Assembly: GCF_002288105.1 (NCBI RefSeq)
Contig: NZ_CP016774.1
Coordinates: 186,001-250,000, forward strand
Reading direction: 5' to 3'
Source of the DNA: Candidatus Planktophila versatilis
GTDB taxonomy: Bacteria; Actinomycetota; Actinomycetes; Nanopelagicales; Nanopelagicaceae
DNA length: 64,000 nucleotides
Part shown: in pieces, positions 4,715 to 11,136 of the stretch
Layout of the letters: each line of letters opens with the position of its first letter
Numbering within the stretch: the first letter of the stretch is position 1
Position numbers and translations under genes: made by a program
The notes under the pieces: generated by a model
Seen by the model: only the letters and a program-made list of their open reading frames with translations
What the model was told of the DNA's origin: nothing
Database searches by the model: none

Positions 4715-5107
4715 TTAACCTTCTTCTTTGGCAATCATAAAAGCGAAGTAAAGCGTTGGAAGTGCAAGTGCCAGAATAACTACCGCACCGATATAGAACT
4801 GTCCTTGTATTTGATAGTAGGCCACTCCCACTGCAATTAAGTTGGCCAAGATAGTGGGAGATCTTCCGAAACTCTTTCCGTTTACATATCCGCGAGCTGA
4901 TGCGAAGAGTCCAATAGCCCCAAGAACTGCAAAGACAACCACTCCAATCAGTGGCGGTAGCTCTTTCTTCTCGTGAGTAAAACCAAGCACAACTAGCCAC
5001 ACACCTAGGGCGAGTACGAGACTTGCCTCGATATAGAGGAGTGCTGCCACTGTTGAACGCTTAGGGGAGAGGTTGGGATTTTCATCTTTTCTTGATTTCC
5101 CAGTCAT
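4715..5107 (-). CDS. Small integral membrane protein, function unknown
   Basis: 130 residues with a basic polar N terminus (about 1-20) followed by four hydrophobic segments (about 22-44, 53-70, 84-100, 105-123) and a short charged tail. I do not recognise a family. The ATG start is supported by a TACAGT hexamer (5115-5120, minus) ending 7 bases upstream, the leaderless pattern seen throughout this window. It is divergent from the zinc-ribbon gene and convergent with the SDR gene, so it is probably monocistronic. Confidence 0.75.
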   Translation of the reverse strand: MTGKSRKDENPNLSPKRSTVAALLYIEASLVLALGVWLVVLGFTHEKKELPPLIGVVVFAVLGAIGLFASARGYVNGKSFGRSPTILANLIAVGVAYYQIQGQFYIGAVVILALALPTLYFAFMIAKEEG

Positions 5108-5114
5108 ATCGCCG

Positions 5115-5120
5115 ACTGTA
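5115..5120 (-). promoter_or_regulatory. -10 hexamer of leaderless promoter for the small membrane protein
   Basis: TACAGT on the minus strand, 7 bases before the ATG. The spacing predicts transcription starting at or next to the start codon. Confidence 0.6.
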
Positions 5121-5161
5121 GCATTTCAATTGAGCTTCTTCACGACGTCAGTCGTGCCCAA

Positions 5162-5167
5162 TATCCT
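5162..5167 (+). promoter_or_regulatory. -10 hexamer of leaderless promoter for the zinc-ribbon/GIY-YIG gene
   Basis: TATCCT ending 7 bases before the GTG at 5175, the same hexamer as used by prfB. A TTCACG -35-like element lies 17 bases upstream (5139-5144). This is the main reason for choosing the 5175 start. Confidence 0.55.
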
Positions 5168-5174
5168 TATTGCC

Positions 5175-7118
5175 GTGCCCGGTAAAAAGGAAAAGCTTCC
5201 GCTATCTGTAACTCATCCTGAGTTGGCCAAAGAAGCTGATGGTTGGGATCCGAGAAAAACCAGTCACGGCGCACGAGGCAAGTTTGCTTGGGTTTGTCCA
5301 CTTTCCCATAGATACACAACCTCTATGTCTCTCAGAACACATCGCGGAACTGGCTGCCCAATATGTGCAAACAGAAAAGTATTAAAAGGATTCAATGACT
5401 TAGCCACAACCCATCCAGACTTGGCGAAAGAAGCAGTTGACTGGGATCCATCAACAGTAATTGCAGGAAGTCATAAGAAGCTGAAGTGGAGATGTAAATA
5501 CCTGCACATTTTCGAAACGACTGTCGGAAGTCGGTCTGGTAAACACAAATCTGGCTGCCCAGTTTGTGTAAATCAAAAACTATTTGTTGGATTCAACGAT
5601 ATTGGAACTACGCGTCCTGATTTGGCCATAGAAGCAGACGGTTGGGACCCAGCAACTGTCATCACAGGTAGCAATAAGAAATTTACTTGGAAATGCAAGC
5701 TAGGACATCGCTATAGTGCGACCATTTCAGATCGAATGGGTAATGAAAAAAAACAACATAAAGGAACAGATTGTCCCTTTTGTGCAAATCAAAAGGTATT
5801 AATTGGATTTAATGATCTGAAAACAACACATCCACAGATTGCGAAAGAGGCTGATGGTTGGGATCCATCAACAGTAATTGCAGGTACCTCTCAAAAAAGA
5901 AATTGGCGTTGCCCACAAAACCATACATATTCAACTGGGGTCAGTTTACGAGCTTTGCGCGGTTACCAATGTCCTGTTTGTGCAAACAAAAATGTTCTTC
6001 CAGGCTTTAATGATCTAGCGACAACAGATCCAGAGGTCGCCGTAAGTGCATTTAATTGGGACCCTCGTACTGTCACGCGGGGTAGTAGCAAAAAAAGGCA
6101 ATGGACTTGCTCAGAAGGGCATATTTTTGAATCGCCTCCGATGGCTCGTACAGGCGAAAATAGAAGCAACTGCCCTTATTGTGCGCACCAAAAAGTTTTT
6201 GCAGGCTTTAATGATTTTGTAACAACTAATCCGGAAGCTGCAAAAGAGGCGGATGGTTGGGATCCTACTGAGTTGATCGGTGGAAGTAAGGTTGTTAAAG
6301 ATTGGAAGTGTTCAAAAGGGCACTCATATAGAATGTCTATCTTCAATAGGAATCGCGCCCAAATCGGATGCCCATTTTGTGGAAATCGAAAAGCTCTTAA
6401 AAATTTTAATGACTTAGCTACCACTCACCCTAAGTTGGCACTAGAAGCAGATGGTTGGGATCCCACAACCGTTATTGCGAGTAGTGAACAAAAGTTTAAG
6501 TGGAAGTGCAGCAAAGGGCACTCCTACTCCTCTGTGCTTTCTAGCCGAGCGTATGCAGGGAATGGATGCCCTGTGTGCGCAAACAGAATAGTTGTATCTG
6601 GTATTAATGACTTAGCAACAACCCATCCAGAAATTGCAAAACAGGCTGATGGTTGGGACCCCTCTATTGTTTCTTATGGAAATGAAACCAAAAAATGGTG
6701 GCTCTGCTCCGAAGGGCATCGATTCAAGAACTCACCAAATGGTCGAACAATGGGCAGAGGCTGCCCATCTTGTGCTGAGTCAGGTTTTGACCCAAATAAA
6801 GATGCCTTTTTATATTTTCTTGAACACCCTAACTGGGTGATGTATCAAATTGGAATCACAAACACCCCAGAAAGCCGATTCAAAAAGCACAAAAGGTTGG
6901 GCTGGAACGTTTTAGAACTCCGAGGCCCAATGGACGGACATCTTACGCAACAATGGGAGTCAGCAATACTTCGAATGCTTAAAGCAAGAGGCGCTGATTT
7001 ATCTAACGCCAAAATTGCTGGAAAGTTTGACGGTTACTCAGAGGCTTGGAGCAAGTCCACTTTTGAGGTTAAGTCCATCAAAGAGCTAATGCGGTTAACT
7101 GAAGAGTTTGAGGCTTAA
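5175..7118 (+). CDS. Eight-fold zinc-ribbon repeat protein with C-terminal GIY-YIG-like nuclease domain
   Basis: About 647 residues. Eight tandem units of 63-72 residues each carry a HPxLAxEADGWDP-like segment, a WxC...H half-site and a CPxCA half-site, giving a C-H-C-C metal-binding set per unit. This matches the probable zinc-ribbon type known as DUF4379. The last 110 residues contain LYFLEH, YQIGIT, ESRFKKH and QQWESAI, which match the Tyr, Tyr-x-Gly, Arg/His and Glu positions of GIY-YIG nucleases (Y547, Y557, R568, H572, E595 from this start). A multi-finger nucleic-acid-binding endonuclease is inferred; its biological role is unknown. A TTG at 5073 with an AGGGGAG upstream would extend it into the divergent neighbour and is less likely. 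Base composition is more AT-rich than in prfB next door. Confidence 0.8.
   Translation: MPGKKEKLPLSVTHPELAKEADGWDPRKTSHGARGKFAWVCPLSHRYTTSMSLRTHRGTGCPICANRKVLKGFNDLATTHPDLAKEAVDWDPSTVIAGSHKKLKWRCKYLHIFETTVGSRSGKHKSGCPVCVNQKLFVGFNDIGTTRPDLAIEADGWDPATVITGSNKKFTWKCKLGHRYSATISDRMGNEKKQHKGTDCPFCANQKVLIGFNDLKTTHPQIAKEADGWDPSTVIAGTSQKRNWRCPQNHTYSTGVSLRALRGYQCPVCANKNVLPGFNDLATTDPEVAVSAFNWDPRTVTRGSSKKRQWTCSEGHIFESPPMARTGENRSNCPYCAHQKVFAGFNDFVTTNPEAAKEADGWDPTELIGGSKVVKDWKCSKGHSYRMSIFNRNRAQIGCPFCGNRKALKNFNDLATTHPKLALEADGWDPTTVIASSEQKFKWKCSKGHSYSSVLSSRAYAGNGCPVCANRIVVSGINDLATTHPEIAKQADGWDPSIVSYGNETKKWWLCSEGHRFKNSPNGRTMGRGCPSCAESGFDPNKDAFLYFLEHPNWVMYQIGITNTPESRFKKHKRLGWNVLELRGPMDGHLTQQWESAILRMLKARGADLSNAKIAGKFDGYSEAWSKSTFEVKSIKELMRLTEEFEA
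5196..6779 (+). repeat. Eight tandem coding repeats of roughly 200 bases (zinc-ribbon units)
   Basis: The units recur at 189-216 base spacing, each with a TGGGATCC/TGGGACCC-like segment (encoding GWDP) and a TGCCC...TGTGCAAA segment (encoding CPxCAN). Units differ at many silent and replacement sites, so they are old, diverged duplications rather than a recent expansion. Confidence 0.85.
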
Positions 7119-7171
7119 TTCCCCGCATTGTCCGTCTAAGCAAGTGATTAGTTCATATATATTCATTCAAC

Positions 7172-10765: not shown

Positions 10766-11136
10766 GGGGGTGAACGGTCTCGACTTTAGTTGTTGAGGCA
10801 GGGGAAGCGGGCCGAGGAAGCCGGGATGATCTCGTAAACCATGAAACCTGTGCAAAAATAACTGCAGACAACAGTCGCAGTGATTTCGCCCTAGCTGCAT
10901 AAGCTAGTTCCGAATCCGTCAGCCCGGGCGCGCTCTCGTCCCGGAATCTGGCGTCGCTAGAGAGCTCTTCATCGAGATAGCGTTGCGAATATCTCGAGAG
11001 AACAGTTTCGCAAATGAGTTCGTTGAATACTTGTGTGTAAGAGATTCAGAACTGAGAAAACGATAAACGCACTACGCCCGTAGAAGCCCTGTTTTAATTC
11101 TGAAGGACCCGGGTTCGATTCCCGGCACCTCCACCA
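10766..11136 (+). ncRNA. ssrA: Transfer-messenger RNA (tmRNA), one-piece
   Basis: 371 bases. The 5' GGGGGTG pairs with CACCTCC before an encoded ACCA 3' end, forming the acceptor stem with one G-U pair. The 3' part has a T-arm with GGTTCGATTCC, and the 5' part has the conserved TGAACGGTCTCGAC. The tag frame at 10864-10902 starts with GCA and reads ADNSRSDFALAA then TAA, ending in the usual ALAA degron. It rescues stalled ribosomes with SmpB, and the tagged proteins are degraded. The RNA is continuous, not the two-piece permuted form. Confidence 0.97.

Follow-up and report, generated by a model that had tools for sequence, protein, structure and literature searches.

A probable DNA-cutting enzyme with eight DUF4379 zinc modules and a GIY-YIG-type domain in Nanopelagicaceae

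The closest described relatives of the gene treated here are phage enzymes. Among phage T5orf172 nucleases, 87% have zinc fingers of the CapR, DUF723 or 'DUF4397' type, with multiple copies in many of them, and recombination of the modules has been shown (Barth et al. 2023, PMC10448857). We infer that 'DUF4397' in that paper means DUF4379. A second point of comparison is Odn (ICP1 Gp88), a T5orf172 nuclease joined to a DNA-reading RepA_N domain, for which both cleavage and target have been demonstrated (PMC8263062). A third is provided by the group II intron HEGs, in which CapR/DUF4379/DUF723-like modules occur on EDxHD/Vsr-type nucleases (PMC12350094).

The gene under study, found in a 64-kb stretch of the genome of a freshwater actinobacterium of the Nanopelagicaceae (acI), hereafter the window, probably encodes a DNA-cutting enzyme with eight zinc reading modules and a GIY-YIG-type cutter (Table 1). 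Like the phage enzymes, it is free-standing and combines an N-terminal array of zinc modules of 60-70 residues, variable in number, with a C-terminal T5orf172/GIY-YIG nuclease; tRNA-gene islands figure in both settings, there for satellites. The phage enzymes belong to phages and satellites of gammaproteobacteria, whereas the present family occurs on bacterial integrative elements of Nanopelagicaceae and picocyanobacteria, has DUF4379 as the sole module in most members, and reaches 9 modules (compare PMC10448857). With Odn the window protein would share a DNA-reading domain on a T5orf172 nuclease, although the reading would fall to zinc modules and not to a RepA_N domain. The group II intron enzymes likewise carry repeated modules of this kind on the N-terminal side of the nuclease but, unlike the window gene, are intron-borne and use an unrelated nuclease domain. 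An earlier note on this DNA had proposed the locus as its best candidate for an undescribed system; this is not supported, since zinc arrays with T5orf172/GIY-YIG nucleases were published in 2023 (PMC10448857) and the phage family phrog_681 covers unit plus nuclease. The architecture is already known; what is added concerns the hosts, the location on integrative elements and a strain-level exchange with a Tad locus. These points extend a phage-type zinc-array homing nuclease family to chromosomal integrative elements of bacteria that are among the most abundant in fresh and marine waters.

Table 1. Features of the nuclease locus, in window coordinates
Feature	Position	Strand	Remarks
Block unlike same-species genome G193	5077..7170	.	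sole non-aligning block in the 64-kb window
Promoter/operator-like sequence TTCACGACGTCAGTCGTGCNNAATATCCTT	5139..5168	+	four exact copies (NN aside) among 135 genus genomes
Inverted repeat CACGAC-GTCA-GTCGTG (may bind a repressor or form an RNA hairpin)	5141..5156	.	within TTCACGACGTCAGTCGTGCNNAATATCCTT
DUF4379 x8 - GIY-YIG endonuclease gene	5175..7118	+	647 aa, GTG start
DUF4379 unit 1	5196..5366	+	C41 H45 C61 C64
DUF4379 unit 2	5394..5567	+	C107 H111 C128 C131
DUF4379 unit 3	5595..5783	+	C174 H178 C200 C203
DUF4379 unit 4	5811..5981	+	C246 H250 C266 C269
DUF4379 unit 5	6009..6182	+	C312 H316 C333 C336
DUF4379 unit 6	6210..6380	+	C379 H383 C399 C402
DUF4379 unit 7	6408..6578	+	C445 H449 C465 C468
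DUF4379 unit 8	6606..6773	+	C511 H515 C530 C533
T5orf172-like GIY-YIG nuclease domain, residues 539-647	6789..7115	+	Y547, Q558, G560, R568, H572, E595 invariant in 14 relatives

The zinc-module array and the nuclease domain

An in-frame TTG at 5073 could lengthen the reading frame upstream. The GTG is favoured as the start, because relatives begin at the same point (MPSKKEKLPLSVTHPELAKEA, versus VPGKKEKLPLSVTHPELAKEA in the window protein) and an identical promoter sequence, known in four copies, lies just upstream. The protein has eight Pfam matches to DUF4379 ('probable treble clef zinc finger'; E = 5e-74), in units of the form W-x-C-x(3)-H...C-x-x-C that follow each other at 66, 67, 72, 66, 67, 66 and 66 residues. 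The eight zinc units reported in the earlier note are therefore present, with a spacing of 66-72 rather than 63-72 residues. Not one of 2000 shuffled versions of the protein contains even two such zinc motifs. In the 108 units compared, taken from 16 relatives, neither the Trp nor any of the C, H, C and C ligands varies, with many other columns strongly variable, and complete genes, the window gene included, hold from 4 to 9 units.

Homogenised repeats are ruled out, as evidenced by unit identities of 46.5% within one protein and 46.0% between proteins. Because units of one protein are no closer to each other than to those of other proteins, the array is old and shuffled, not recently duplicated. 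By comparison, the closest relatives share 69-82% identity with the window protein in the nuclease domain, which implies a much faster rate of change in the array than in the cutter. Retargeting would explain this, but relaxed constraint would look similar. In a hybrid gene of one relative (L116 1665-2798), which lies directly after another array nuclease gene, a CapR-like module and a DUF4379 unit precede the same nuclease, so that the two kinds of module appear interchangeable. With 4-9 modules attached to one conserved nuclease, these arrays lend themselves to the question of whether DUF4379 reads DNA modularly, and no test of this was found in the literature searched, where few papers name DUF4379. 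DUF4379-like domains also occur in the trypanosomatid mitoribosome/assembly proteins mt-SAF33 and mS66 (PDB 6sga_Fd, 7aor_at, 6yxx_E2), which makes RNA contact possible for the fold.

In a single-sequence search the window nuclease domain alone falls below the Pfam cut-off (PF01541, E = 0.079). Among 14 relatives, GIY-YIG (PF01541) is matched by eight (best 1.4e-4) and T5orf172 (PF10544) by five (best 4.6e-4). The PHROGs phage 'endonuclease' family phrog_681 matches unit 8 plus nuclease at E = 1e-55 and the nuclease domain alone at E = 1.4e-7. Its HMM spans unit and nuclease, as here, but tblastn identity to the phage relatives, of which there are hundreds, is only about 22-28%, and a search of viral contigs for close relatives found none. 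An hhalign comparison of the family profile with that of the CapR-array nucleases of the genus, of which 6/9 match T5orf172 and 4/9 GIY-YIG, gave a probability of 99.1 (E = 7e-19). Both parts of the protein are homologous to phage homing-endonuclease domains.

The catalytic residues are intact. Tyr547, Arg568, His572 and Glu595 do not vary in the 14 relatives, Prochlorococcus and Synechococcus included, and R568 and E595 are the Arg/Glu pair expected of the T5orf172-type family; the free variation of Tyr, Arg and Glu that the earlier note had named as a refuting result was not seen. The 'Tyr-x-Gly' of the motif description in that note is really Y-Q-I-G, in which Tyr557 varies and Gln558 is invariant. 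Where this family has Q-I-G, the genus CapR-type nucleases have K-I/V-G, Lys standing at the Gln558 position in T5orf172-type domains of the genus. The absence of the YIG Tyr places the domain with the T5orf172 type, not with the classical I-TevI type.

An AlphaFold2 model of the nuclease domain alone (pLDDT 90.9, pTM 0.83) has the order strand-strand-helix-strand-helix, the beta-beta-alpha-beta-alpha of a GIY-YIG core, with the first-motif Tyr, the Arg and the Glu present. Foldseek returned no match below E = 0.7 among solved structures, and a sequence search of solved structures with this domain gave nothing meaningful. A second structure aligner placed seven Slx1 entries on top (Z 4.9-5.7 over 82-91 residues, rmsd 3.5-3.9) and, lower, at Z 3.7 each, 1mk0 (catalytic domain of I-TevI) and 1zg2 (a UPF0213 protein), all of them GIY-YIG proteins; the structural signal is confined to this aligner, and the matches are modest (Z about 5). 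Slx1, I-TevI and the window domain have in common the whole-domain fold and the Tyr/Arg/His/Glu pattern, whereas the YIG Tyr is missing from the window domain and the partner domains are different. The structure check suggested for the last ~110 residues thus produced a confident model with GIY-YIG nucleases as its best known-structure matches, and the evidence for the nuclease class is stronger than that for either role, homing or interference, considered below.

A variable slot and a shared promoter sequence

The window gene is flanked by an SDR gene, a small membrane protein gene (minus strand) and prfB, with a GC content of 0.438 as opposed to 0.46-0.50 in these neighbours, so that it is indeed an AT-richer insert, if a mild one. 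Genome G193, from the same species, matches the window at 99.35% over the left 5 kb and 97.6% over the right 57 kb. In place of the nuclease gene, which it lacks at this locus, G193 has a gene set of ~4.95 kb resembling a Tad-pilus locus, including a CpaF-like ATPase (an identification by sequence appearance, not HMM). Two genomes of one species therefore differ, over 64 kb, in a single non-aligning block, with a nuclease gene in one and a Tad-pilus locus in the other, and the change is a strain-level replacement of 4.95 kb by 2.1 kb, not a clean insertion. The differing block of the window contains neither an integrase nor att repeats. The idea that the gene is part of some longer, integrase-encoding element was considered and rejected, since the block holds only the nuclease gene.

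Elsewhere in the genus, 28 other loci have both the membrane-protein gene and prfB, and 18 of these keep the full Tad set, as against ten without it. Three slots are nearly empty (271 bp in G018, 62 bp in G150 and 68 bp in G014), and that of G155 retains the first Tad gene only. G153 has a cytosine methyltransferase-like gene and a neighbouring restriction-type gene (by appearance), G018 a short adenine-methylase-like remnant, and G185, G081 and G187 have other genes. CapR-type array nucleases occupy two slots, in G079, where the gene is on the same strand and 39 bp upstream of prfB, and in G152, where it is on the opposite strand. Presence of the window gene between the SDR gene and prfB, a comparison that the earlier note had called for, is patchy. 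Counting the window, three separate array nucleases lie in this slot out of ~20 such genes genus-wide, a number higher than expected from random placement, although the slot is generally variable and was chosen beforehand, so that the count is not proof of targeting. Across the genus (the window block, L086, L075, L087, L089, L095 and L035), slot contents are Tad-like, restriction-modification-like or exonuclease-like genes, array nucleases, or nothing.

The sequence TTCACGACGTCAGTCGTGCNNAATATCCTT precedes the window gene, the second copy of the gene in the same genome (on a tRNA-Leu island) and one gene each in G086 and G175, in each case directly upstream of a DUF4379-GIY-YIG gene. No further site was found in the 135 genus genomes, even with three mismatches allowed, and a search of viral sequences gave no copy. 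For the inverted repeat within it, an RNA hairpin is stronger than in shuffled sequences (z = -3.4), and a protein-binding site is equally possible. A -10-like TATCCT box lies about 7 nt 5' of the GTG, a placement consistent with a leaderless transcript; the gene's own leaderless-type promoter, claimed earlier, is supported as a prediction by this box and by a sequence common to four family genes. The units encoded behind TTCACGACGTCAGTCGTGCNNAATATCCTT are on average only about 44-46% identical to those of the island copies. As TTCACGACGTCAGTCGTGCNNAATATCCTT is identical despite this divergence, the promoter has been retained by, or has spread with, the gene family, and it ties the window gene to the lineage on the islands.

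Relatives on integrative islands

Matches of any kind occur in 18 of the 135 genomes of the genus, a patchy distribution. The second copy in the window genome, with six units, belongs to a 7.85-kb island in tRNA-Leu(TAA) (L028 865-8818), bounded by 49-bp direct (att) repeats that overlap the tRNA 3' end. Besides this nuclease gene, the island encodes a tyrosine integrase, an HTH_36 protein and a DUF6994 protein; at the same site G193 has an intact tRNA-Leu and no island. Tyrosine integrases lie near six relatives. Pfam confirms integrases near copies at L027, L029, L030, L032 and L119, and the integrase of L112 and L115 has an N-terminus near-identical to that of L027. One island type encodes a protein with weak similarity to the replication protein G2P (E = 0.0066, which does not reach the cut-off of Pfam), and in L031 an McrBC pair precedes the nuclease gene by 63 bp. 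Picocyanobacterial relatives are found at L117, L118, L121, L123, L125 and L126. The association with mobile elements proposed in the earlier note is supported, in that relatives with 4-9 units reside on bacterial integrative elements. On one contig two array nuclease genes stand in tandem (G173:C113 2156-5228). Decayed remnants, with a stop codon or as fragments, occur at G176:C40 106239-106626 and G169:C36 3545-3691; such copies are expected of a homing cycle, but also of any mobile cargo.

Homing, interference and other roles

On balance we favour, with rather more confidence than doubt, a stand-alone, sequence-specific DNA endonuclease of the mobile-element type that spreads by homing. The eight DUF4379 modules would bind an extended site on DNA, rather than RNA, and the T5orf172-like GIY-YIG domain would cut or nick nearby, using Arg568 and Glu595 with Tyr and His. 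Repair of the break from the nuclease-bearing chromosome would then copy the gene, together with its flanks, over the rival allele, so that homing, not ordinary recombination, would account for the placement of the gene. Gain, loss and exchange of modules would shift the target. Counting against this, the exchange of 4.95 kb for 2.1 kb is not the clean short-site insertion that defines classical homing, and there is no intron or intein and no known target site. The modular nucleic-acid reader with an end cutter envisaged in the earlier note agrees, as a prediction from sequence, with the architecture, the GIY-YIG-type domain and the mobile association, whereas the repair role that it allowed for is unlikely.

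An interference or defence nuclease is possible, though the less likely of these two roles: the island, or the cell that kept the gene, would direct it at a sequence in some competing phage or element, much as PLE satellites are cut by ICP1 Odn, and homing would be unneeded. Integrative elements carry the gene as cargo, close to tyrosine integrases and, in one element type, to the G2P-like protein, one relative adjoins the McrBC pair, and the slot elsewhere holds the restriction-type and methylase-like genes of G153 and G018 and the array nucleases of G079 and G152. Odn itself is a T5orf172 nuclease guarding one element against another (PMC8263062). However, PADLOC-DB 2023 has no model for the gene, the sole match being PDC-M01B with E = 0.034 across 39 residues, the window has no adjacent methylase or immunity gene, and no target was found. 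Homing and interference can overlap, as the authors of the Odn study suggest (PMC8263062). A bolder version of the favoured homing endonuclease, which we think improbable, is an evolvable modular DNA reader, each module recognising a separate segment of DNA, whose 4-9 modules small actinobacterial and cyanobacterial integrative elements would re-assort to retarget the nuclease against rivals, the Tad-pilus allele here having been cut and replaced by the nuclease gene.

A host repair enzyme of the Slx1/UvrC/URI kind, recognising DNA structure, would suit Slx1 as the closest known structure, but the presence of any match in so few genus genomes, the free variation of array length and units, and the island-borne copies make it highly improbable. 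An RNA-binding or RNA-cutting protein is just as hard to credit. The DUF4379 relatives with solved structures do belong to mitoribosomes or to their assembly, but the nuclease branch and the relatives in phages are DNA enzymes of the homing type, and DNA binding is reported for the related CapR zinc finger (PMC10448857).

Apart from the nuclease locus, the window contains a tmRNA gene at 10766-11136, downstream of smpB, with the tag ADNSRSDFALAA.
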